Below are positions 1 through 27,928 of a DNA stretch of 27,973 nt, piece by piece. The position numbers and the translations under genes were made by a program. The notes beneath the pieces were generated by a model. It saw only the letters and a program-made list of their open reading frames with translations, had not been told where the DNA came from and did not search any database. Within the stretch, counting starts at the first letter, position 1; every line of letters begins with the position of its first letter. Origin of the DNA: a virus; IMG/VR virus record IMGVR_UViG_3300025889_000741, positions 1 through 27,973 of that record; one strand, given 5' to 3'.

Positions 1-948
1 CATAACTTAACTGGTGCTGCAATCAATAAAGGAGACGCAGTCTATATCTCTGGGACCGCACACGGTAAACACCCACAGGTGTCCCTTGCACGTGCAAATG
101 TTTCGACAACAGGTAATCCAACAGGTCTTGCGACTATGGATATTCCTGACGGTGCTCACGGTTGGGTGACTCGATATGGTATAGTCCGTGATGTAAACAC
201 TGGTGATTTTGCTGCTGGGTCAACTTTATATTTGTCTGCTGATTCCGCTGGTAAGTGGACATCTACTGAAGTCACTGTTGATACTGGTTATCCATTTCAT
301 ATTGGTATAGTTTTAACCTCTGATTCAACTGCCGGAACAATTCTTGTAGATGGGTTTAGTGAACACTACGAATATCTGCGTATCGAAGACAGACTGAAAG
401 TCTCAGGTAGACTTGAAGCTGACTCTGCGTCACTTCTGAATGTGCAGTTTGACACCACAAGGTTTGATTCACACCAACCATATAGTGAAGGTCTCTTATT
501 CTACGATAACAAACACAAAACGTTAAACTATTTTGACGATATTACGGATATGAATCACGAGATTGGTATCCAAGAACACCAACGTGTGTGGAATAACACT
601 GGTTCGACAATTAAGAAAGGACAACCACTATACTTTAGTGGCAACTATACTTCAGGTACTATTGATGTTCCTACGGTTGGTCTTGCAGACGCAACAGACG
701 TAAACGCATATAACGCTCAAGGTATTGCCGCTCAAGATATTCCAAACAACTCTTATGGTCACTGTTTGATTGCTGGTCAATTGACCGAAGTTAATACAAC
801 AGGTCTGTCAGACGGTACAAACTTCTTCGTGGGTCTTGGTCCTGGATTAACTCAGAACGCATCTCCGACATATCCAAACTACCCTATGTGTTTGGGTTGG
901 GTTGTTAAGACTGGTGATTCAGATAATGGTATCTTACTTGTCAATCAA
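1..948 (+). repeat. Duplicated protein module within the fibre-like gene
   Basis: Two copies of an approximately 120-residue module lie at about 1-354 and 589-948. Both begin with an 'N-T-G-x-x-I-x-K-G' motif followed by a hydrophobic strand ending in 'SG'. Both contain a 'DIP' turn midway and end in 'G-I-L-V'. They are similar in protein but diverged in DNA, so this is an old internal duplication, not a recent repeat. Confidence 0.55.
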
Positions 949-2040
949 CAGAACCATTCAGTTAACTCATTCCGTGTAAGAACTTCTGCACACATTGGTA
1001 CAGACTTACAGGTTGACGGTAACTTAACTATTTTAGGCAGTACGACTACTGTAGGTACATCTAACGTAACTCAGGGTGCACCGTTCTATCGATTGAACGA
1101 AGGTGATGCGATTGGTGAAGCAGGAACAGTCTTCACTGGTACTGGACTTGACGATGCATTCTTTGCAGGACACTTTACAGGAACTACGCCTACTACATAC
1201 TATGTTCGTATTGATGGTGTGGGGACAGGGCCAAGCGGTGTTGACACATTTGAGTGGGATACTGACAGTGCGTTTGGTTCCCCCGAAGCAACAAAGGTTC
1301 CTATCACTGGAAGTCCACAACTCATTCATTCTGCTGATAATATATCAGTTGAGTTTGGGGCGACCACAGGTCACGATTCAGGTGATACATGGGAAGGTAC
1401 TGCATCTCCCGTAAACGTAGATACTGGTTTCTTCACAAACCGAAACACTGGTACAAGTGGTGTTGGTTATACTCATATGGGCATCTTCTTTGATGTCACC
1501 GATGAAAAATGGAAACTAGTAGACGAATATGATTCAACTCCAGCAGGTACAATCAACGTTAGTGATCCTTCATTCAGTCTTGCAACTCTAGTTGCCGATA
1601 CATTCGAAGGTAACTTAATTGGTGATGTAACAGGTAAAGCACTTACAGCAAATGCTCTTGATTCGGGACAAGATTTCTCAATCACAGGCGACATTACCGC
1701 TGCGGCTATAACCTTTGATGGAACAAGTGGTGTTGCACTGAATGCCTCAATCACCGCCGGTTCTATTGTCAATGCAGACATCAATGCAACTGCTGCGATT
1801 GCGGATACAAAACTCGCAACGATATCGACTACAGGTAAAGTTCAGAATAGTGCAACAACTGCAACCGACTCGAACACTGGTTCTACGATTGTTGCCCGTG
1901 ACGTATCTGGCAACTTCTCTGCTGGAACAATTACTGCTACCCTAACAGGTACTGCTTCAAATGCTAGTCAATTGAACAGTCAATCGCCAAGTTACTACCG
2001 CATAGATGTTTATGACAGGAACGGCACTCTCTTGAATTGA
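1..2040 (+). CDS. Fibre-like virion structural protein, C-terminal part (5' end outside window)
   Basis: The frame is open from base 1, so the gene starts upstream; a GTG at 79 is only an internal codon. About 680 residues are visible. The composition is rich in Gly, Thr, Ser, Asn and Asp, with almost no charged helices. Two similar modules (about bases 1-354 and 589-948) share the pattern 'NxTG..I.KG...Y.SG' followed by a long beta-rich stretch. Further on there are short repeats of the type 'GNLIGDVTG', 'FSITGDITA' and 'GNFSAGTITATLTG', typical of beta-helical or triple-stranded tail-fibre regions. No catalytic motif was seen. It is probably a virion appendage (tail fibre, whisker or neck decoration) placed just before the neck genes. 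The exact role and any receptor specificity cannot be read from the sequence. Confidence 0.75.
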   Translation, partial: HNLTGAAINKGDAVYISGTAHGKHPQVSLARANVSTTGNPTGLATMDIPDGAHGWVTRYGIVRDVNTGDFAAGSTLYLSADSAGKWTSTEVTVDTGYPFHIGIVLTSDSTAGTILVDGFSEHYEYLRIEDRLKVSGRLEADSASLLNVQFDTTRFDSHQPYSEGLLFYDNKHKTLNYFDDITDMNHEIGIQEHQRVWNNTGSTIKKGQPLYFSGNYTSGTIDVPTVGLADATDVNAYNAQGIAAQDIPNNSYGHCLIAGQLTEVNTTGLSDGTNFFVGLGPGLTQNASPTYPNYPMCLGWVVKTGDSDNGILLVNQQNHSVNSFRVRTSAHIGTDLQVDGNLTILGSTTTVGTSNVTQGAPFYRLNEGDAIGEAGTVFTGTGLDDAFFAGHFTGTTPTTYYVRIDGVGTGPSGVDTFEWDTDSAFGSPEATKVPITGSPQLIHSADNISVEFGATTGHDSGDTWEGTASPVNVDTGFFTNRNTGTSGVGYTHMGIFFDVTDEKWKLVDEYDSTPAGTINVSDPSFSLATLVADTFEGNLIGDVTGKALTANALDSGQDFSITGDITAAAITFDGTSGVALNASITAGSIVNADINATAAIADTKLATISTTGKVQNSATTATDSNTGSTIVARDVSGNFSAGTITATLTGTASNASQLNSQSPSYYRIDVYDRNGTLLN

Positions 2041-2055
2041 TATACATATTATATT

Positions 2056-2586
2056 ATGAAACCCCTTATAATATGTGCTCTTCCTCGATCAAGAACCTTC
2101 TGGTTGCACAAATATTTTGCTTGCTACGAAAATATTGATTCTCACCACGAGTTGACCGCAAAGGTCGATTCTGTTCAACAATTCTTCGACTCTTTATACC
2201 CTCCAGGAAAACAGTTTATTAATGTAGACGCATTCTCTGTTATGACCTTTCCTTGGGAAATAAAAGAAGTAGCAAATTTGGTGTTTATAAAAAAAGATAT
2301 TTCTCGCTGCGTTGAATCAACTTTAGAAGTTTTTTCAGAAGATCACTGGGTCCATCAGAAGGGGTTTAACTACTTGTACACTTGGTATGAAGATATGTAT
2401 GAACAGTATATGGATAATGCAGATATTGTGATTGAATATAAAGACTTAGACCATGATCTGGAACTCCTTCATGAGTTTACAGTTGAAAAGTATAATAAAG
2501 AAATTCACAAAAGAATGATAGATAAAGTGTTAAATGTGGAAAAGCAATATATTTCTTTTGAAAAATTCTTTATCTGGCAACGATGA
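2056..2586 (+). CDS. Sulfotransferase-like protein
   Basis: 176 residues. Near the N-terminus, after a short hydrophobic strand, is 'LPRSRTFWL' (residues 9-17). This resembles the 5'-phosphosulfate-binding loop of PAPS-dependent sulfotransferases (PRSGTTWL-type). A second strand, 'LVFIKKDISRCVES', sits where the family has its 3'-phosphate-binding Arg/Ser element. The protein is short for a sulfotransferase (usually 250 or more residues), so it is a compact or reduced member; activity and acceptor are unknown. The gene lies 15 nt after the fibre gene in a very AT-rich junction without a clear ribosome-binding site, and its last bases overlap the next start (ATGA). Base and codon use are more AT-rich than in the structural genes, suggesting accessory origin. 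A role in sulfating a phage or host surface molecule is speculation. Confidence 0.6.
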   Translation: MKPLIICALPRSRTFWLHKYFACYENIDSHHELTAKVDSVQQFFDSLYPPGKQFINVDAFSVMTFPWEIKEVANLVFIKKDISRCVESTLEVFSEDHWVHQKGFNYLYTWYEDMYEQYMDNADIVIEYKDLDHDLELLHEFTVEKYNKEIHKRMIDKVLNVEKQYISFEKFFIWQR

Positions 2587-3110
2587 GTATAGAATACACG
2601 CATCGCGAAAAAGATGTTACTCTCTACGATTTCATAGAGAAAACAGGACAAAAAAAGTGGTTTAGCAAATCTTCTCCTATCTTCTATCATGGTATAGAAT
2701 ATGACGGAATATTGGGTGTTGCCACGGTCGAACTAGAGAGAGTGCAGCACAAAGGTTTGGAGTGGGTTCCTCTATGTATGATTGTAGACCCTAAAGTTTT
2801 TAGAAAAGAAATTCTGAGAAAGTATCCAAAAAGAATTATCCACAAAACAAGAATAATAAGTACATACAAAATAGGACACCAATTGTTTGAGGTAGAAGAT
2901 ATATCTGGCGGTGCTTTCACTATAACTCCTTCTGACAATACAATAGCACTAAAACACATGAGCGAGTGGCTAGACCCGTACAACAGAATACAAAAAACAG
3001 AGCATAAAAACGCTGAAGGCAACAGTTTGTTTCGTTGGCATTTTTCTAGAGAAGATTGGTATTCCGGCATACTTCAAAAGCAAGCGCAAGAAGCGATAGA
3101 GGAATTGTAA
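2583..3110 (+). CDS. Hypothetical protein, paralogue of the next gene
   Basis: 175 residues; the family is not recognised. It starts at the ATGA overlapping the stop of the sulfotransferase-like gene and ends in TAATG shared with the next gene, so the three genes look translationally coupled. Residues about 55-105 and the C-terminus ('WHFSREDW' then a helix) align by eye with the following protein ('WQFPRSDW' then a helix), indicating an old tandem duplication. No signal peptide, membrane segment or known catalytic motif was seen. The sequence is AT-rich and uses AGA and ATA codons freely, unlike the capsid genes. It is probably an accessory protein. Confidence 0.7.
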   Translation: MSIEYTHREKDVTLYDFIEKTGQKKWFSKSSPIFYHGIEYDGILGVATVELERVQHKGLEWVPLCMIVDPKVFRKEILRKYPKRIIHKTRIISTYKIGHQLFEVEDISGGAFTITPSDNTIALKHMSEWLDPYNRIQKTEHKNAEGNSLFRWHFSREDWYSGILQKQAQEAIEEL

Positions 3111-3634
3111 TGATCGGCGATCTTACTTTTGATCACGGAGAGTGGAATGATGAGGTTTATTCTTGGGTAAAATCTCAAGGATGGACACACTGGGATACCG
3201 CAAAGAGATATTCTGCCATGCGTTGGAACACTCATATCCTGTTTCTTTTGATACATAATGATTACACTAAAGATTATTTTAAAAAAGGAGAAACTTGGGT
3301 AGAGGTTAGTACACTCGCAGACTACTCTTTTCTTAAACGCGGTGCATTTAAATCCCTAGACAAAAAACAGAGAAAGATGGTTAGGGACTTTGGAATATAC
3401 AAAGCAGGCACGTATATTTTCGACACCCTTGGATTGGACGGACTTTATGGTGTTATAGAGGAAGATAATGGAACCGTTCATAAAATAACTGACAGAATAA
3501 ATGGCATTAAAAAAGTCAAGATTGATAAAACAACGTCAGATGGGGTACAACTATATCACTGGCAGTTCCCTCGTTCTGATTGGGAAGAAAGTTTCATACA
3601 AAACAGGGCATTAACAGCAGCGTTGGATATTTAA
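3110..3634 (+). CDS. Hypothetical protein, paralogue of the previous gene
   Basis: 174 residues from the ATG at 3110, which overlaps the preceding stop by one base (TAATG). An in-frame ATG at 3056 lies inside the upstream gene and is unlikely to be used. The family is not recognised. It shares with its neighbour an aromatic-rich N-terminal third, a 'KG-x-x-WV' strand, a 'Y-K-x-G-x-x-x-F' strand and the C-terminal 'W-x-F-x-R-x-D-W' motif followed by a helix. It ends just before a late promoter, so it closes the accessory cassette. Function is unknown; the conserved W/R/D motif could be structural or catalytic. Confidence 0.7.
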   Translation: MIGDLTFDHGEWNDEVYSWVKSQGWTHWDTAKRYSAMRWNTHILFLLIHNDYTKDYFKKGETWVEVSTLADYSFLKRGAFKSLDKKQRKMVRDFGIYKAGTYIFDTLGLDGLYGVIEEDNGTVHKITDRINGIKKVKIDKTTSDGVQLYHWQFPRSDWEESFIQNRALTAALDI

Positions 3635-3637
3635 AAG

Positions 3638-3645
3638 TATAAATA
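3638..3645 (+). promoter_or_regulatory. T4-type late promoter (TATAAATA)
   Basis: An exact TATAAATA octamer lies in the short gap between the accessory cassette and gp13, 27 nt before the gp13 ATG at 3673. This is the consensus recognised by a gp55-type late sigma factor, which is encoded in this window at 20187-20774. It would drive the neck and packaging genes. Confidence 0.75.
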
Positions 3646-3672
3646 GATGTAAATGCTTTTAGGGAAAAAACA

Positions 3673-4062
3673 ATGGCAGTCATTACCACAAGACAAGGAC
3701 TAATCGACTACTGTCTCCGTCGCCTTGGTGACCCAGTTATAGAGATAAATGTCGATGAAGATCAAATTGAAGATAAAGTCGACGACGCACTACAAGTGTA
3801 TCAAGAGTTTCATCATGATGCCACTATTCGAGTTTACTATGAGCATCAACTAACCGCTGATGACATAACAAACAAGTACATCACTCTGCCTACAAACATC
3901 TTGTATGTCACTAAGATGTTTCCTATCTCAAGTACAATTATCAACAGTTCTAACTTCTTTTCCTTTAATTATCAGTTCGCTATGAGCGACTACCATCATT
4001 TGTCTGACGTTGGTGCTAGTGGTTTGTCGTACTATGAGCAATGCGACAGTATATGGAATTGA
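3673..4062 (+). CDS. 13: Neck protein gp13, N-terminal part (frameshifted)
   Basis: 129 residues covering the first half of a T4-like gp13 neck protein. It begins 'MAVITTRQGLIDYCLRRLG' and continues with 'VDEDQIEDKVDDALQVYQEFH', characteristic of this family. The neck protein closes the head after packaging and joins it to the tail. The frame runs into TGA at 4060 just after 'SYYEQ'. The family's C-terminal half continues in the -1 frame from about 4038. Inserting one base near 4038 (GAG-GCA-ATG) would join the two halves without loss, so this is one gene with a single-base deletion or a sequencing or assembly error. The start is the only ATG after the late promoter. Confidence 0.8.
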   Translation: MAVITTRQGLIDYCLRRLGDPVIEINVDEDQIEDKVDDALQVYQEFHHDATIRVYYEHQLTADDITNKYITLPTNILYVTKMFPISSTIINSSNFFSFNYQFAMSDYHHLSDVGASGLSYYEQCDSIWN

Positions 4063-4430
4063 TTGATATGAAAGTAAACGGACTGCCTTTGATAACTTTT
4101 TCTAGAAAACAAAACCGTTTATATATTCACAGCGACATTGAGGACGGAGTGTTAACTTCTGGTAGTTATATCGCTTTAGAAGTTTATCAAACTGTAGACC
4201 CAACAGCACATACTTCAGTATTCAATGATATGTTCATGAAAGACTATACCACTGCCCTAATTAAAGAGCAGTGGGGGCAAAACATGTCAAAGTTTGAAGG
4301 CATGCAACTCCCTGGAGGAGTAACAATTAGCGGAAGAACTATGCTCGAGGAAGCAAAAGAAGAAATTAATAGTTTGCGAGAACGTATGCGTCTTGAGCAA
4401 GAAGTTCCCCCAGACTTTTTTGTAGGTTGA
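4041..4430 (+). CDS. 13: Neck protein gp13, C-terminal part (frameshifted)
   Basis: This is the continuation of gp13 in another frame. It contains the conserved 'DMFMKDYTTALIKEQWG' and 'KFEGMQLPGG' blocks and ends in the usual acidic helix with 'RMRLEQE'. The ATG at 4041 is probably an internal codon of the full gene rather than a real start: no ribosome-binding site precedes it, and the family has about 260 residues in one chain. Only 4 nt separate its stop from gp14. If the shift is real, the phage would lack full-length gp13, which is essential in T4. An assembly or sequencing error, or an unrecognised recoding event, is therefore more likely. Confidence 0.8.
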   Translation: MRQYMELIDMKVNGLPLITFSRKQNRLYIHSDIEDGVLTSGSYIALEVYQTVDPTAHTSVFNDMFMKDYTTALIKEQWGQNMSKFEGMQLPGGVTISGRTMLEEAKEEINSLRERMRLEQEVPPDFFVG

Positions 4431-4434
4431 TATC

Positions 4435-5334
4435 ATGGCGACCTCTCCTTATTTTCGTCAAAACGTTCGCTCAGAACAAAACTTATACGAGGACTTGATT
4501 GTAGAGTCCTTGAAGTTTTATGGAAACGACATTTATTACATACCACGAGAAGTTGTTTCTCGTGATATGGTGTTCAACGATGCAGAACTTTCTCGGTTTG
4601 ATTATGCATACAAATTAGAAGTCTATATCGAAAACGTTGAAGGGTTTGACGGAGAAGGAGACCTTTTCCAAAAGTTTGGGGTTGAGATAAGAAACTCTGT
4701 AAACTTTATTATGTCTCGTCGTAGATGGAATACTGAAATCCGTTCCTATGAAGAGACCCCTCAAAACAAGTATTATCGTCCTAGAGAGGGTGATCTGATT
4801 CACCTTCCTTTATCTGGTTCTACTTTTGAGATAATGAGTGTCCGTGACGAAAGTCCTTTCTATCAGTTAGGGCAACTTCCAACATTCAACCTTCGTTGCG
4901 AGTTGTTTGAATATAGTGGTGAAGACTTCGATACTAGTGTTGCTCAAATTGACGATATTGAATCCTTTGCTGCGTATCAGTACCAACTCACTATGGACTC
5001 TTCCTCTATCGGTTATGAGGCAGGAGAGACTGTAACACAAACGTTTGACGACTATGTGATAACAGGAGAAGTTGTAAATTGGAATGATTCTGATAACGTC
5101 ATGAGTCTTGCTCATGTTGGCAATACCTCTGGTGAATACAAGGTGTTTACAACTACTGCTCAAGTAGTGGGAGATAATTCTGGAGCAATTGCCACCCCAA
5201 CTTCTGTTGCCGAACTACAAGAGATACAACCAGGAAGTCCAGGTGGAGCAGACGGAAACGTAACAAGTTTTGATATTTCTGCTTTTGAGTTCCTAGACTT
5301 CAGCGAGTCTAATCCGTTTGGAGACCCACAATAA
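4435..5334 (+). CDS. 14: Neck protein gp14
   Basis: 299 residues, similar in length and pattern to T4-like gp14, the second neck protein that sits with gp13 at the head-tail joint. Recognisable features are the N-terminal 'SPYFRQN..SEQNLYEDLIVES' block with 'YYIPRE', the 'FGVEIRNSVNFIMSRRRW' segment and the 'YYRPREGDLI..P' segment followed by 'FEI..V....PFYQLG'. The C-terminal third (Asp/Ser/Gly-rich) is less conserved. It lies between gp13 and gp15 and shares TAATG with gp15. Confidence 0.88.
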   Translation: MATSPYFRQNVRSEQNLYEDLIVESLKFYGNDIYYIPREVVSRDMVFNDAELSRFDYAYKLEVYIENVEGFDGEGDLFQKFGVEIRNSVNFIMSRRRWNTEIRSYEETPQNKYYRPREGDLIHLPLSGSTFEIMSVRDESPFYQLGQLPTFNLRCELFEYSGEDFDTSVAQIDDIESFAAYQYQLTMDSSSIGYEAGETVTQTFDDYVITGEVVNWNDSDNVMSLAHVGNTSGEYKVFTTTAQVVGDNSGAIATPTSVAELQEIQPGSPGGADGNVTSFDISAFEFLDFSESNPFGDPQ

Positions 5335-6137
5335 TGTTTGGTACACATTTCTATAATGAGCGTGTTAGGAAATCTGTAGCGATTTTCGGATCTCTTTTTA
5401 ACAATCTTTATATGATCAGAAAATCTGGAAGCACCGTTTATGAGCAAATGAAAGTTCCTTTGGCGTATGCTCCGCAAAGGAAATTCCTCGAGCGTATAAA
5501 CGAGATGAACGACGGAGAAGATAACGAAAGGCAACTCGCTATCAAGTTGCCTCGTATGTCTTTCGAGATCTCTGCTATATCTTATGATGCTCAGCGTCAA
5601 CTACCAAAGATGAATTACTTTTCTAAAACTGGTGCTGAAGACAATCAAAAGGCAACCAAGTTTTATGCCGCAACTCCATATATTATAACCTTTGAGTTGA
5701 GTGTTTACGCAAAGCAGCATGACGACGCATTACAAGTAGTTGAACAAATCCTGCCATACTTTGCTCCGCAGTATACTGTTTCTGTAAAACCAGTAGCAGA
5801 CTATAACAGCATTGTCGAAGATGTTCCTGTTATTCTTCAATCTGTTGTCTTCACAGACGACTTTGAGGGTTCTATGGAAAACCGTAGAACTATCATATAT
5901 ACATTGACCTTTGATATGAAAGTTGCTTTCTATGGACCGAAACCAGCAGAAAGCGAAATTATCACTCGTGTTGACCTTGACCTCTTTAATATGGATGTAG
6001 ACTCTGCTGGAACCGACCTGCACCTAGAAACCGTGCGCGTAGAAACTAACCCAAGACCAGTTTCTCAAGATTCGGATTATTCTTTGGTCACTTCAGTTCT
6101 AGACAGCGATACATATGTGCCGCATGACTATACCTGA
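5334..6137 (+). CDS. 15: Tail sheath stabiliser/completion protein gp15
   Basis: 267 residues. It opens with 'MFGTHFYNERVRKSVAIFG' and 'LFNNL', the signature start of T4-like gp15, followed by 'VPLAYAPQRKFLERI' and a central 'LPRMSFEI' motif. In T4, gp15 caps the head-proximal end of the contracted-tail machine and connects tail to neck. It starts on the last base of the gp14 stop. Its 3' end overlaps the next gene by up to 23 nt. Length and order agree with the family. Confidence 0.9.
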   Translation: MFGTHFYNERVRKSVAIFGSLFNNLYMIRKSGSTVYEQMKVPLAYAPQRKFLERINEMNDGEDNERQLAIKLPRMSFEISAISYDAQRQLPKMNYFSKTGAEDNQKATKFYAATPYIITFELSVYAKQHDDALQVVEQILPYFAPQYTVSVKPVADYNSIVEDVPVILQSVVFTDDFEGSMENRRTIIYTLTFDMKVAFYGPKPAESEIITRVDLDLFNMDVDSAGTDLHLETVRVETNPRPVSQDSDYSLVTSVLDSDTYVPHDYT

Positions 6138-6798
6138 GCATCATTATTTTTTTAAAATCCCAAACATTGAATTGCCCGAAGAAACTAGAAACCACCTTAT
6201 AAAAAGGGCAAAGCAGAAAAAAGATATTCCTATAGAACAGTTCCGAAAAGTAACTTTGAAGGGATACGATGGTGTAGCTTCCCAATTAATGTTCGGTACT
6301 GTTAAAGCAGGTCAATCAACTGCTCATAATGTTAGTTCTTCGGTAGCGAACGAGGGGTTGCGATATAATTGGGTGGGAATGTATGGTCTCCATGGATTGA
6401 AAGATGTCATTCCTGATTATGACCCTGTTGTAGATTCTATTTACAATATGTTTACCGAAGAAGCAAAAAAACATCTGTTTTATTTTATTGTAAGTAGCAC
6501 AGAACCATATGGATATATGTCTCCTCATATGGATCAACGCACTTTCGGTAAACATAGAGAATCTGTCATATTCTTTCCCCTTGAACCATATAATGAAAAG
6601 GATTGGGCACCCTTAACATACTACACACCAGAAGGAAAAACTATTCCTATTAATTTCTATCATTGTTATGCTGGTAATACAGAAGCGGTTCATGGTTACG
6701 AAAACAACGAGCACCCTAGATATCACCTACAGATTTCTTTTCTACAACCAATGGAAGTGCTATATAAGTTGCACACAGAAAATAGGTTGTTCAAATGA
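6115..6798 (+). CDS. Putative 2OG-Fe(II) oxygenase
   Basis: 227 residues from the ATG at 6115; the in-frame ATG at 6124 is an equally good start. A double-stranded beta-helix iron site can be read as H138-x-D140 ('PHMDQR'), H193 ('AVHGYE') and a possible 2-oxoglutarate-binding R202 followed by the strand 'YHLQISF'. This H-x-D...H...R spacing is that of 2OG-dependent dioxygenases. The substrate is unknown; it may be a protein side chain or a small molecule. It is inserted between gp15 and gp16, overlaps gp15, and ends in an ATGA shared with gp16, so it will be expressed late with the virion genes. It is less certain than the other two oxygenases in the window because the N-terminal half is unrecognised. 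Confidence 0.55.
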   Translation: MCRMTIPEHHYFFKIPNIELPEETRNHLIKRAKQKKDIPIEQFRKVTLKGYDGVASQLMFGTVKAGQSTAHNVSSSVANEGLRYNWVGMYGLHGLKDVIPDYDPVVDSIYNMFTEEAKKHLFYFIVSSTEPYGYMSPHMDQRTFGKHRESVIFFPLEPYNEKDWAPLTYYTPEGKTIPINFYHCYAGNTEAVHGYENNEHPRYHLQISFLQPMEVLYKLHTENRLFK

Positions 6799-8758: not shown

Positions 8759-8766
8759 TATAAATA
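8759..8766 (+). promoter_or_regulatory. 18: T4-type late promoter (TATAAATA) before gp18
   Basis: An exact TATAAATA octamer, 73 nt before the gp18 ATG, in the longest gap of the virion block. It matches the consensus for gp55-directed late transcription and would give strong expression of the sheath, tube and head genes. Confidence 0.8.
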
Positions 8767-24296: not shown

Positions 24297-24478
24297 TGGT
24301 GCACAAGTTAAAAAGAAAAAGGTACAACTCTCTTGTAGAGTTGAAGAAAGAAATACAAGATAAAGGAAAAGAAAAGGTTCTTGATTTTAACGGTTATTCA
24401 TTAGTAACTAACAAGAACAAATACACGATGGTAGATAGTATGATATATGTGAATGGTGTTCTTCATGGAGTTGATTAA
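24296..24478 (+). CDS. Small basic protein ahead of the TET/JBP gene
   Basis: 60 residues if started at TTG 24296 or 59 from GTG 24299. There is no in-frame ATG before 24428. It is Lys-rich at the N-terminus ('HKLKRKRYNSLVELKKEIQ') and then forms a likely beta-hairpin ('GYSLVTNKNKYTMVDSMIYV'). The composition looks like a real small phage protein. Its start coincides with the -10 of the promoter, so from that promoter it would be nearly leaderless; it may instead be read from upstream transcripts. Its end overlaps the next gene. Function is unknown. Confidence 0.5.
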   Translation: MVHKLKRKRYNSLVELKKEIQDKGKEKVLDFNGYSLVTNKNKYTMVDSMIYVNGVLHGVD

Positions 24479-25856
24479 TATTGCAGGTCGCCAATGGAAG
24501 AAATACAAAGGCGATCAAGGTCAAGATGTTTATGTCGCACAGTTTCTTGAATCAGATGATGCTGTTCTTGGTACATATGCAGATGAGAACTCTTATGATC
24601 TTCTTATAGAAGATGATGCTGATTTTTATTTGCCTTCTAATGATTTGACAAACGATACTCACGAAGAAGATCTCGTTGCTTTCAAGTTCCGTAAAAATGT
24701 TTTCACGCAAGCAGAACAAGATGGTGCGTTTGAAGGTTTGTATGGTGCTGCTGTTGAATCAAATAACCGTGGACTAGCAGCTGGACCAAGAGAAGAAACT
24801 CAGGGTGGAAGAGATTGGGTTACTTTATATCAGTCCAGTGTCCTTGGTTGGTACGAAGAGGGGCAACCCCCAAGCATCGATGGTTCTGACCCACTCGTTA
24901 AATTTGCTAATATAAATAAAGATGAGATCCGTGGTGGTGTTTGGTTACGCACCAAAGTGGAACCAGAGTTTGGAGACTATAAAAACTTCTTCCCTAAACT
25001 AGAGGAGAAGTTGAAGTCTATGCCTCTTGAAGAGGCAAAATCATATGCTAAAACAATTAGAAAAGATTTTATATCGGACACTTCTTACGCCACTGCTATT
25101 TGGAGTGGTATTGCTGGGTTCTATGGTCGTTATCCTCGCATACCTTATGGTCGCGCTACAGCGTATACTGATCACCATAGAGAAACGTTTGAAAAGTGCT
25201 ATCCGTTCGCAAGGAAACTAGAAAAAACTTTCGCAGAATTACTCCCTGTTCGTCATTCTCGTCAAAAGAAATGGGCGGATAAAGTTGACCCAAAGTTTCT
25301 GATTGGCGAAGATACTACTTTCACCACAATCACTGTCAATACTACCACCAAAGATCGCAATGCTCGTATGGCATGCCATCGAGATGCTGGTTCTTTGAAC
25401 GAAGGTTATTCTAACTTGACGGTAGTCAGTGATGGCAAGAAAAACTGGAAAGGCGGATACCTCGTTTGCCCTGAAGTTCGTGCTGCTATTAATGTCCGAC
25501 CTGGTGACCTATTGCTCGTCGACAACATGCGAGTTATCCACGGTAACACTCCAATCGAAGCACCTGATACTGGTGAAGATGACCTGATGCGTATGTCTCT
25601 CGTATTTTATTTCCGTGAGGATATGGCGAAGTTGGGTAGTTGGGAGTATGAGCACCTGCGTCGTGCCTATGTTGACGCCCGCCGCAAGAATGAAGAACAC
25701 CCACTGTGGCGTCCATATTGGAATGGTGTATCGCCTTCCATGTGGGACGAACAAGAGTGGTATGATTGGTTGACTGTTGAAGGCGGCGAGTCGATGGTTC
25801 GTCAGTATCATCCTAAAGCATTTGAAGTTGCTGGTTCTTTGGAGGATTTCTTTTAA
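24465..25856 (+). CDS. TET/JBP-type 2OG-Fe(II) dioxygenase
   Basis: 463 residues from ATG 24465 (467 from ATG 24453; neither has a good ribosome-binding site). The C-terminal half carries the TET/JBP core. Iron ligands are H305-R-D307 ('MACHRDAGS') and H359 ('VIHGNTP'); the 2-oxoglutarate arginine is R376 ('RMSLVFYFRE'). 'GYSNLTVV', 'GGYLVCP' and 'VRPGDLLLVDN' are typical connecting strands. The superfamily oxidises the methyl group of 5-methylcytosine or thymine in DNA; phage members are known to make 5-hydroxymethylcytosine. Residues 1 to about 275 form a long, unrecognised N-terminal region that may bind DNA or a partner. The substrate here is inferred. The gene shares one base (TAATG) with the amidotransferase gene. 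Confidence 0.82.
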   Translation: MELINIAGRQWKKYKGDQGQDVYVAQFLESDDAVLGTYADENSYDLLIEDDADFYLPSNDLTNDTHEEDLVAFKFRKNVFTQAEQDGAFEGLYGAAVESNNRGLAAGPREETQGGRDWVTLYQSSVLGWYEEGQPPSIDGSDPLVKFANINKDEIRGGVWLRTKVEPEFGDYKNFFPKLEEKLKSMPLEEAKSYAKTIRKDFISDTSYATAIWSGIAGFYGRYPRIPYGRATAYTDHHRETFEKCYPFARKLEKTFAELLPVRHSRQKKWADKVDPKFLIGEDTTFTTITVNTTTKDRNARMACHRDAGSLNEGYSNLTVVSDGKKNWKGGYLVCPEVRAAINVRPGDLLLVDNMRVIHGNTPIEAPDTGEDDLMRMSLVFYFREDMAKLGSWEYEHLRRAYVDARRKNEEHPLWRPYWNGVSPSMWDEQEWYDWLTVEGGESMVRQYHPKAFEVAGSLEDFF

Positions 25857-26527
25857 TGTGCGGAGTGATTGGTGTCTACCTCACTGATGTTACTCCTGCT
25901 GATTGCGGATTAGTTAGTAACCTTTTCTTAGAATCAATGATTCGCGGGAAACATGCCACTGGCGTCACCTTTTTCAAAGACGGTAAATTCAATACAATTA
26001 AAGAACCAACTTCCTCTTACCTTTTCCTTGGCAGACATACTACGGTTGAAGATTGGGTTGACGGAGATACTCTATTGTGTATAGGGCATACTCGATACTC
26101 TACTTCGGATCTACGTTACAATCAACCGTTTCAAGGCAAAGAAATTTCTATTGCACATAATGGAGTTATCTCTCAAGACCCAGACATTTGGGAATACGAA
26201 ACAGAGACTTTGAATGATTCTGAATTGATACTTCGATGCATTGAGGCAGGTGATACTCCTCTTGAAGTTTACAAACACCGAAGTATGGCATGCGTCGCTA
26301 TAGAAGATGGAGTTCTACATGGTTGGAGAAATCATGAACGTCCTCTTTGGATGGCACCAAGAGATAACGGTCTTATCTTTGCTTCAACAGAAGATATAAT
26401 TAGAAGGTCTCGCATCGAAGGTCATGTAGAAAAATGCGAACCTCTTGTGAAATACACTTACAGTAATTATGGTGGGTTATACGAAGATAGGAGATTCTTC
26501 GACCCCGACTTGGAGGACTTGCAATGA
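25856..26527 (+). CDS. Class II glutamine amidotransferase
   Basis: 223 residues, an Ntn-hydrolase. Met1 is followed by Cys2, the nucleophile once Met is removed ('MCGVIGVY'). Also seen are 'GHTRYST' (78-84), 'RYNQPF' (87-92) and 'IAHNGVI' (99-105). 'NDSELI' near residue 120 is the usual acidic element. It releases ammonia from glutamine. There is no attached synthase domain as in PurF, GlmS or AsnB, so it must serve a separate partner, most likely the amidoligase that follows. A GGAGG site precedes the start inside the TET/JBP gene; the 3' end overlaps the amidoligase as ATGA. Confidence 0.88.
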   Translation: MCGVIGVYLTDVTPADCGLVSNLFLESMIRGKHATGVTFFKDGKFNTIKEPTSSYLFLGRHTTVEDWVDGDTLLCIGHTRYSTSDLRYNQPFQGKEISIAHNGVISQDPDIWEYETETLNDSELILRCIEAGDTPLEVYKHRSMACVAIEDGVLHGWRNHERPLWMAPRDNGLIFASTEDIIRRSRIEGHVEKCEPLVKYTYSNYGGLYEDRRFFDPDLEDLQ

Positions 26528-27399
26528 AGTATAATCCAAAAGACTTTACTTATGGATATGAGATTGAATGGGGTGACATTGATCGAACTCTGCAAATTCC
26601 AGAGCACCTTGGGTCATGGGAACATGCAGAAACGGATATTGTAAACGTTCATGAACCATACAGGTTTGTTGCTTGTGACCCTCTTGGGTTAGAACCACCT
26701 GTTGGCGGAGAAGTCAATACAAAACCTACAAGCACTTGGCAAGAACAAGTAGATCGAATCATGGAGATACATGATTTGTTTGTTGCGAATGGAGACAAAC
26801 CATCTGCCTCTTGCGTCAATCATGGACACCTTCATGTTTATGTCCCTGGACTGAAAGAAGATGTTGACGGTTTAAAGCGACTGATTGCATACATAAAAGA
26901 GAATCAAGAACTAACCGTTGAGTCTTGTTACCAATTTGGTCAGAGACCAGAGATGAAGATACTCAAAGGTTCAAAGACTTACTTGAAGTATGATGGCGGT
27001 CGACTAATGCCAGAATATATGTGTGACAACATCATAAACCTTGCAGAAGATTTTGACCATTTCATTAAACTTCATGCAGCAGGTAAAGATGGAGTTTCAA
27101 TGGGTCGTCCATTCCGCCATGCAATCAACACCTATTGCATGAAGCACACTGGTACTATCGAGTTCCGTTGCTTCAGGTCTACAACTGATCGCAAACAGAT
27201 TGAAGATCAGTTTATATTTGCTGAAGCATTTATTGATGCTGCTCTGAATGACGGACCTAGTGTTGAAGAGATCCTAGATTCTAGAAACTTCAACTTCCCT
27301 CCTTTCGTTTGGAATCCAGGAGAGTATAAAGGTTGGATGAATACAAAGTACGATAAGTCTCGCGGAGAGAAGAAAAGAGAATTTCATGAAGTTGCGTGA
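26524..27399 (+). CDS. Amidoligase (glutamine-synthetase-fold COOH-NH2 ligase)
   Basis: 291 residues. The motifs fit the Amidoligase_2 pattern. They are 'YGYEIEWGD' (10-18, Glu13/Glu15 as metal ligands), 'GGEVNTKP' (61-68) and 'NHGHLHVYVPG' (99-109, His100/102/104). Then come 'GRPFRHAINTY' (194-204) and 'TIEFRCFRST' (211-220, Glu213/Arg215/Arg218). Such enzymes use ATP to join a carboxylate to an amine. In phages they are known to occur with class II amidotransferases, as here. The carboxylate substrate is unknown; candidates are a DNA base carboxyl made by the TET/JBP enzyme, a peptide or a metabolite. GGAGGA lies 9 nt before the ATG. Confidence 0.8.
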   Translation: MKYNPKDFTYGYEIEWGDIDRTLQIPEHLGSWEHAETDIVNVHEPYRFVACDPLGLEPPVGGEVNTKPTSTWQEQVDRIMEIHDLFVANGDKPSASCVNHGHLHVYVPGLKEDVDGLKRLIAYIKENQELTVESCYQFGQRPEMKILKGSKTYLKYDGGRLMPEYMCDNIINLAEDFDHFIKLHAAGKDGVSMGRPFRHAINTYCMKHTGTIEFRCFRSTTDRKQIEDQFIFAEAFIDAALNDGPSVEEILDSRNFNFPPFVWNPGEYKGWMNTKYDKSRGEKKREFHEVA

Positions 27400-27928
27400 A
27401 TGTTCTGCTGAACAATTTAAAAACGCAATAACCGATGATCCTGCTGACAAGTTTGCAAAAACTTTTGTCGCTAAGGCAAATATGCAGGAGCAATGGAGTT
27501 TTTGTATAGGTGCTTGGGATGAGGATGATTCTCTTCTAGGTGCAATCATTACAACAATAAGCAAACGTTCCCCAAAAGTAGCAAACCTACAACTTCTTCA
27601 CACCTTTGCTAAACACAGAGGCAAGGGAGTTGGTCGTATTCTCTGCGAGGACTCCCTCCGCTTTGCGAGACAGAACGGTGCTGTGTACTTCCGAGTATCT
27701 GCTGAACCTGACGCTGTAAAGTTCTACGAGAGAATTGGGTTCACTATGCTCGGAAAGCAAAAGAGTGGGTGTCAATTATCCATGTTTAGGATTACTGGTG
27801 ACACCTTCTTTGACGGCGATTATAGTCTGGAAAATAAACCGATCTATGAAGCAGTACACAAAAAAGGCAAGGGAGGATGTGTTGAAGTATTCGCTGACGA
27901 ACCCCTTGGACTGGAAGGGTTTCTGTAA
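27386..27928 (+). CDS. GNAT-family acetyltransferase
   Basis: 180 residues. The acetyl-CoA-binding motif is 'HRGKGVGRIL' (77-86), followed by the helix 'CEDSLRFARQNGA' and the motif B segment 'AVKFYERIGF' (110-119). The acceptor is unknown. It starts 14 nt inside the amidoligase gene, so it is probably coupled to it, with a weak purine-rich ribosome-binding site. The last 50 residues after the GNAT fold ('DGDYSLENKPIYEAVHKKGKGG') are an extension of unknown role. It is the last complete gene of the window, and the cassette may continue to the right. Confidence 0.85.
   Translation: MKLRECSAEQFKNAITDDPADKFAKTFVAKANMQEQWSFCIGAWDEDDSLLGAIITTISKRSPKVANLQLLHTFAKHRGKGVGRILCEDSLRFARQNGAVYFRVSAEPDAVKFYERIGFTMLGKQKSGCQLSMFRITGDTFFDGDYSLENKPIYEAVHKKGKGGCVEVFADEPLGLEGFL

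Follow-up and report, generated by a model that had tools for sequence, protein, structure and literature searches.

Tandem genes with a predicted GNAT fold lie in a variable cassette at the fibre-neck junction of T4-like phages

Marine T4-like phages vary strongly in the block of genes that recognises the host. In pelagimyophages and cyanomyophages, a host recognition cluster is described as spanning VrlC to the neck gene (PMC7029224); it is presented as a hypervariable, fibre-bearing block that ends at the neck genes and holds non-fibre enzymes, features shared by the locus analysed here. Neither an acetyltransferase nor a sulfotransferase is mentioned in that paper's main text. Metaviromic islands are reported to occur at fibre genes (PMC3909814, PMC7468147), and the location described below fits that picture. 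Fibre chaperones of about 20-22 kDa, such as T4 gp38, Mu Tfa and V22 gp27, are described as often being encoded right behind fibres (PMC7289586). They resemble in position and size the gene pair reported here, although the pair gives no match to a chaperone family and its predicted fold is GNAT. T7 gp13 is a proposed GNAT-domain protein thought to act in virion morphogenesis, and the T7 gp13/cobavirus pc40 case likewise places a GNAT-domain protein beside structural genes of a marine phage (PMC6775973). However, that case concerns a podovirus internal-virion locus, whereas the pair occupies a T4-like fibre-neck junction. A GNAT-sulfotransferase cassette behind a T4-like fibre is not named in the portions of the literature searched.

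The virus record analysed, 27,973 bases long, is referred to as a whole as the window. Its gene order is fibre, P0003, copy A, copy B, gp13, gp14, gp15, an ORF starting at 6115, gp16, gp17, gp18, gp19 and gp20, where P0003, A and B make up the cassette. This order is based on the ORF list, family matches for the fibre and gp13, a terminase search and the annotated relative Phage C48C1 (terminase 69.6% identical, record placed in Kyanoviridae); the names gp14-gp16 and gp18-gp20 were assigned from order and from reading of the sequences. The relevant features are as follows.

79-2040, plus strand: tail-fibre or minor tail protein (PHROG minor tail protein, E 5e-7), C-terminus ...YYRIDVYDRNGTLLN
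2056-2586, plus strand: P0003, sulfotransferase-like, first cassette gene, with a 4-base overlap with P0001
2583-3110, plus strand: P0001, copy A of the tandem family with predicted GNAT fold, diverged branch, 175 aa
3110-3634, plus strand: P0002, copy B of the same family, nearer the family consensus, 174 aa from the ATG at 3110
3638-3645, plus strand: TATAAATA, late-promoter sequence of T4 type that immediately precedes gp13 and marks where the cassette ends downstream
3673-4430, plus strand: neck gene gp13 (head-tail adaptor), conserved downstream flank, in frames 3673-4062 and 4041-4430

The cassette sits directly behind the fibre C-terminus YYRIDVYDRNGTLLN, on the same strand as the structural genes, and the start of P0002 overlaps the stop of P0001 by 1 base. 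The first part of gp13 matches the PHROG head-tail adaptor Ad2 (E 1.3e-14). In the window this gene is split by a single-base frameshift relative to the related loci L003 and L004, which is either a sequencing error or a real lesion; intact copies exist elsewhere, and one gp13 ORF of at least 250 aa is present in all 80 of the gp13 loci fetched (the best 80 of at least 600).

Several other window genes deserve mention. The block at 24453-27928 encodes a TET/JBP-type 2OG oxygenase (PF12851, E 2.5e-15), a GATase_6 glutamine amidotransferase, an amidoligase-like protein that scores just below the cut-off and an ordinary GNAT, and is possibly a base or peptide modification set. The ORF at 6115-6798, between gp15 and gp16, looks by eye like a 2OG oxygenase and has no Pfam or PHROG match at E<=0.1; locus L102 has an ORF at the same place. 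The ORF at 23779-24288 matches PHROG 2954 (E 3.1e-43), whose label 'ferrochelatase' seems ill-suited to a sequence that by eye appears oxygenase-like.

An earlier note, made from the sequence alone, had pointed to two neighbouring genes, at 2583-3110 (175 aa) and 3110-3634 (174 aa), that align with each other and end in WHFSREDW and WQFPRSDW followed by a helix. Its coordinates and lengths are correct, and the similarity proves significant. BLASTP aligns P0001 with P0002 at E 4e-10 (29 of 121 columns identical, 24%), a P0001 query recovers P0002 in the window's own record at E 6.1e-9, and none of 2000 shuffles (mean 31.5, sd 5.2, maximum 63) reaches the Smith-Waterman score of 107 for the pair. 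The BLASTP value and the shuffles rule out chance similarity, and P0001 and P0002 are, beyond reasonable doubt, homologues and tandem paralogues. Both endings are present, and AlphaFold2 models predict C-terminal helices after them at residues 156-160 and 163-174 of P0001 and 155-160 and 162-173 of P0002. Among the 298 window ORFs of at least 40 aa, the two genes alone carry W.F.R.DW. The full motif is not a family signature: when W-x-F-x-R-x-D-W is followed across 14 aligned members its first W alone is invariant, and distant members carry WDYSKEEY or WRYTRQEF in its place.

The two proteins belong to a small phage family that has no Pfam or NCBIfam model and is unnamed in the libraries searched. 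Including the window, 24 family genes are known on 16 contigs. The gp13 loci surveyed are the best 80 of at least 600 candidates, a sample biased to close relatives, and further loci were collected through family sub-alignments; an iterated profile search placed members at E < 1e-13 and everything else at E >= 0.09. The family is present in 6 of these best 80 gp13 loci, and 74 have no member in the stretch examined; more than 2,000 bases upstream are available in 57 of the 80, and 5 of those 57 hold the family. Alignments A7 and A8 include 14 of the 24 genes. Of the 10 omitted, some duplicate or nearly duplicate another gene, some are cut or broken, and one is the second L102 copy.

Downstream of the family genes stands gp13 in all 16 contigs. 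A tandem pair occurs on eight of them and a single copy is seen on the other eight, although single-copy status is uncertain in L092 and L097, where the contig starts near or inside the gene. The contig listed as L101 is the same as L089. In L098 the family gene (4407-5029) is broken by a frame change, and the near-identical L019 and L096 copies are whole. A P0003 homologue precedes the pair in five of the eight pair contigs (the window, L003, L006, L089 and L090). In L015, which lacks P0003, a fibre stands where P0003 stands elsewhere; L102 has no P0003 homologue within the short stretch upstream of its pair; and the L004 contig ends before the P0003 position, its first family copy being cut by the contig end. 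Because L018 and its relatives have one family copy, L015 lacks P0003 and L102 has none in its short stretch, neither the pair nor the sulfotransferase-like gene is obligatory.

Searches beyond these loci returned little. With P0001, P0002, the L018 copy and the first L015 copy as queries, tblastn against 50,697 sequenced phage records gave nothing at E<=1 other than a lone match of E 0.6 over half of the query. Two short-pattern scans of bacterial genomes built from sub-alignments A3 and A6, which reach close relatives only, found no relatives, and single-protein scans of viral contigs with P0001 and P0002 found none. When the profile was run against 47 whole records (3 family contigs, 9 named phages and 35 of the 74 member-less gp13 contigs), the three known family contigs were recovered; a match in P-HM1 (E 0.0115) has an internal stop and was taken as chance. 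The Pfam models 53-BP1 Tudor, HEPN, DUF4278, DUF3977 and FilR1 (E 0.025 or worse, one or two members each) were rejected. A PDB sequence search with the family profile returned one unrelated match (E 0.57 and 0.78). Family members gave no match to fibre-assembly models (PF16778, PHROG fibre assembly).

The GNAT fold has the order beta1-alpha1-beta2-beta3-beta4-alpha3-beta5-alpha4-beta6-beta7. AlphaFold2 models of P0001 and P0002, built with a 14-row alignment, have pLDDT values of 83.4 and 83.5, respectively, and a pTM of 0.79 each. They predict a strand, a helix, three long strands, a helix, a strand, a helix and two strands; a further short helix separates strand 4 from helix 3, and two helices follow at the C-terminus. 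This is the GNAT order, and fold searches of the PDB agree with it: the best Foldseek E values are 6.7e-6 (P0001) and 6.1e-7 (P0002), and nearly all of the 50 PDB matches listed per model are acetyltransferases, other GNAT-fold enzymes (EsaI included) or the structural-genomics protein PA3270. The exceptions by title among the matches listed, one per model, are 7byy ('bacterial toxin') and 2vzy (Rv0802c). TM-scores on the query are moderate, at 0.41-0.61 for P0001 and 0.36-0.62 for P0002 among the matches listed. VIA-align Z reaches 11.4 for P0001 (LasI, 3.2 A, 151 residues; EsaI scores 11.3 and FeeM 10.6) and 11.9 for P0002 (SpeG, 3.0 A, 140 residues). The comparison groups of the superfamily (SpeG, PA3270-type, Ard1/Naa50, EsaI/LasI, FeeM) lie within about 1 Z of each other against the pair models, and since rows within 1 Z are ties, no GNAT subgroup is assignable; the AHL synthase and FeeM matches are tied with many other GNATs for P0001 and P0002 alike.

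Both proteins thus share a strand-helix order and predicted fold with this superfamily and almost certainly have the GNAT fold, a confident prediction from the models. In a search of viral predicted structures (BFVD), a RimL-type acetyltransferase ranks first (E 3.2e-7); further matches include a DUF2824 protein and, at E 6.4e-4, the Vibrio phage N4 'Internal virion protein A'. In agreement with the fold, PHROG 4470 (acyl-CoA N-acyltransferase) matches weakly in 2 of the 10 members scanned (P0002 E 0.0026, best 0.0019), and this profile also matches in 8 of 14 cellular control genomes. No Pfam GNAT model matches at E<=1 among 10 members. PF13302 (Acetyltransf_3) gives nothing at E<=10 in 16 records and misses the window's ordinary GNAT too. 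The earlier note had recognised no family for either protein, which holds for Pfam and NCBIfam, where neither has a convincing match, and does not hold for the fold, which is predicted to be GNAT. The pair nevertheless differs from known GNATs in its low identity (4-15% among the matches listed), its extra short helix, its lack of a Pfam GNAT match and the absence of [RQ]xxGx[GA].

In standard GNATs, [RQ]xxGx[GA] before helix 3 is the acetyl-CoA pyrophosphate loop. This sequence is absent in all 14 members tested; as a control, the ordinary GNAT at 27386-27928 of the window has the loop RGKGVG. Because the loop is missing, the pair is not classed as canonical GNAT acetyltransferases, and that identity was rejected. 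The family does retain invariant residues, namely (in P0002 numbering) Tyr34, Arg92, Tyr97, Phe104, Trp151 and Ala167. A strand-4 Glu serves as general base in several GNATs, and a Tyr on helix 4 is often kept as general acid. Once three near-duplicates are removed from the 14 rows, Glu65 on predicted strand 4 is conserved in 8 of the 11 that remain; its position is Pro in the A copies of the window and L003 and Lys in L019. No conserved Tyr on helix 4 is found among the aligned family members. In addition to having Pro at the position of Glu65, P0001 has lost Gln87. From the pattern of Glu65 conservation, B would be the likelier catalyst and A a diverged partner. We lean slightly towards B being an enzyme.

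The first cassette gene, P0003, appears sulfotransferase-like from its sequence. P-loop sulfotransferases have a 5' PAPS loop like PRSGTTWL, and the loop PRSRTFWL, which resembles it, is invariant in the three aligned P0003 homologues. Matches to Pfam Sulfotransfer_3 (E 0.021 in the window, 0.0095 in L003, 0.016 in L006) all fall below the cut-off, with 15.5-16.6 bits against a curated value of 27. In the PDB, a profile of three P0003 homologues matches two sulfotransferases and nothing else at E<=10; their values, E 0.21 and 0.27, fall short of significance, and P0003 alone finds no sulfotransferase there. Relatives of P0003 were found neither in phages at E<=1 nor in a single-protein pattern scan of viral contigs; the homologues known came from the gp13 and family loci.

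Other genes occupy the same slot between fibre and gp13 elsewhere. We surveyed 10 ORFs of 6 loci, 5 of which had no Pfam match at E<=0.01 or only a doubtful one. They include a nucleotide-sugar epimerase in L035, Phage_tail_APC in L043 and L073, and a cupredoxin-like protein that scores below the cut-off. In the four contigs of the L019 type, gp13 is separated from the family gene by an extra ORF of about 460 aa (6527-7945 in L019), which in L097 is split over three frames. The LSEGIDSA loop of this ORF recalls by eye the ATP loops of asparagine-synthase-type enzymes, a reading unsupported by Pfam, PHROGs, PDB or NCBIfam.

The cassette and the fibre end stand apart from the flanking late genes in their divergence. 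Relative to L003 and L004, dS is 1.43-2.63 for the fibre end (54 alignable codons), P0003, A and B, versus 0.18-0.84 for gp13, gp14, gp15, ORF 6115, gp16, gp17, gp18, gp19 and part of gp20; for gp13 against L003 it is 0.21-0.27. In 100-base bins, identity to L003 is 91% at 2000-2099, 57-82% across 2100-3599, 95-100% at 3600-3899 and 77-99% thereafter to 5999. As these comparisons suggest, the cassette appears to have been exchanged together with the fibre end as one module, putatively by recombination. Since the block has diverged from its nearest relative much further than the late genes beside it, it fits a swappable part of the host recognition cluster: a fibre precedes it, gp13 follows it and dS contrasts with that of its flank. 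The cassette very likely belongs to the host recognition module, at whose downstream edge it sits; the window begins at the fibre, without the VrlC end.

The fibre end itself recurs among the gp13 loci. A C-terminus of YDxxGTLLN or close to it (1990-2040 in the window) is found in 21 of the best 80 of at least 600. In 17 of these 21, gp13 follows within 2-30 bases with no cassette; in the other four (L003, L006, L015 and L018) a cassette lies between fibre end and gp13, and in L018 a 113-aa ORF precedes the family gene. The motif was not found upstream in L019, and L004 is cut. The shared C-terminal peptide occurs on fibre ORFs of very different lengths and perhaps acts as an attachment or assembly tag and as a homology arm for fibre exchange. 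Among named phages, C48C1, S-H38, S-CREM1, P-HM1 and P-TIM40 have no annotated gene between a fibre, structural or hypothetical gene and the neck gene, and in S-SRM01 a 'baseplate wedge subunit' precedes the neck gene; the junction is not covered in S-H25 and Syn33, and AG-345-L05 is unannotated.

The downstream border carries TATAAATA, a motif described as a T4-type late promoter (PMC2984593). It occurs four times in the window against 1.07 expected, a number reached in 3 of 100 shuffles. In 43 of 79 loci, including all six family loci among them, it stands no more than 100 nt before gp13. The other window sites are at 8759, 13327 and 24911; those at 8759 and 13327 precede a gp18-like ORF (8840) and a gp21-like ORF (13538), a late-promoter-like placement. 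As no TATAAATA was found upstream of P0003, late expression of the cassette would come from read-through.

The history of the pair can be partly traced in a midpoint-rooted tree. One clade (100/99) unites the A copies of the window, L003 and L006, and the duplication behind A therefore predates the split of these three. B copies are not shown as one clade: those of the window and L003 group together (99/98), and that of L006 falls, weakly supported (82/84), with the rows of L015 and of the single-copy loci. The two L015 copies group together (97/95), with a program warning of long branches meeting there, and a second tandem duplication may have occurred in L015. Between the window and L003, dN/dS is 0.095 for A, 0.075 for B and 0.18 for P0003, values that are rough because dS, at 1.55-2.63, is near saturation. 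Retention of two diverged copies, noted earlier in the window, extends to L003/L004 and L006/L089/L090, with dN/dS of 0.075-0.095 between the window and L003 (dS near saturation). An A-B heteromer is possible; the 1-base stop/start overlap and the tandem pairs perhaps formed twice are pointers to it.

We tentatively prefer, at somewhat less than even confidence, a reading in which the cassette is exchanged with the fibre end, B is a non-canonical acyltransferase and A its diverged partner, and these together with P0003 tailor a surface product. B would transfer an acyl or similar group through a non-canonical donor site without [RQ]xxGx[GA], with Glu65 on strand 4 as a possible catalytic base, and A would be a diverged, perhaps non-catalytic, partner. 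P0003 would add sulfate, and A/B acyl groups, to a surface-facing product; the neighbouring fibre, or else a different component of the virion, is the most plausible substrate. Such a target, fibre or exposed part of the virion, is suggested by the place of the genes in the late run and by their variation with the fibre; whether the target lies on the virion or host surface at all is an even call. A bolder version is improbable: in it, a swappable set decorates the fibre, made up of a sulfotransferase and a heteromeric transferase of GNAT fold that pairs a catalytic with a non-catalytic subunit and uses a donor other than standard acetyl-CoA.

A strong rival to tailoring, though on the unlikely side of even, is that the pair are non-catalytic GNAT-fold assembly factors suited to the preceding fibre, acting as its chaperone, as a tip cap or in morphogenesis. 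The absence of the acetyl-CoA loop in 14 of 14 members, the position behind the fibre and the co-divergence with its end all fit this idea, as do Phage_tail_APC, a chaperone family that fills this slot in L043 and L073, the BFVD matches to 'Internal virion protein A' of Vibrio phage N4 and a DUF2824 protein, and the precedents described for T7 gp13 (PMC6775973) and downstream fibre chaperones (PMC7289586). However, the sulfotransferase-like gene that accompanies five of eight pair contigs suggests chemistry, the family has no match to fibre-assembly families, and the 17 gp13 loci with the same kind of fibre C-terminus and no cassette indicate that such fibres do not generally need it. The chemistry might instead be directed at the host: acyl and sulfate groups could be added to a glycan of its surface, which would block superinfection or reuse of the receptor, or a host protein could be acylated during takeover. 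Structural matches to SpeG, which acts on polyamines, and to two sugar N-acyltransferases, PseH and FdhC, are compatible with this, and there are described parallels in the LPS-type glycosyltransferases of the pelagimyophage host recognition cluster (PMC7029224) and in phage GNATs such as Rac that modify host proteins (PMC7824862). We nonetheless regard host-directed enzymes as unlikely: the cassette is embedded among the late structural genes, which is late for a takeover role, its divergence follows the fibre end, and no sugar-pathway gene was recognised among the scanned subset of window genes. Mom enzymes are described as GNAT-superfamily phage proteins (PMC7824862), and a TET/JBP-type oxygenase is encoded at 24453-25856 of the window; even so, a Mom-like role in modifying phage DNA bases is very improbable, as the pair lies about 21 kb from the oxygenase gene, in the fibre region rather than a DNA-modification cluster, and has no Pfam match to a DNA-modification family.

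We view the family as an unusual GNAT-fold cargo of the host recognition cluster, with a fold that is clear in prediction. Recurring behind the fibre gene and diverging with it, the family offers a concrete candidate for proteins that would act on the fibre, whether as enzymes or in its assembly. If the genes do encode a swappable set of fibre-decorating transferases, host recognition in these phages would be altered by covalent modification as well as by fibre sequence.
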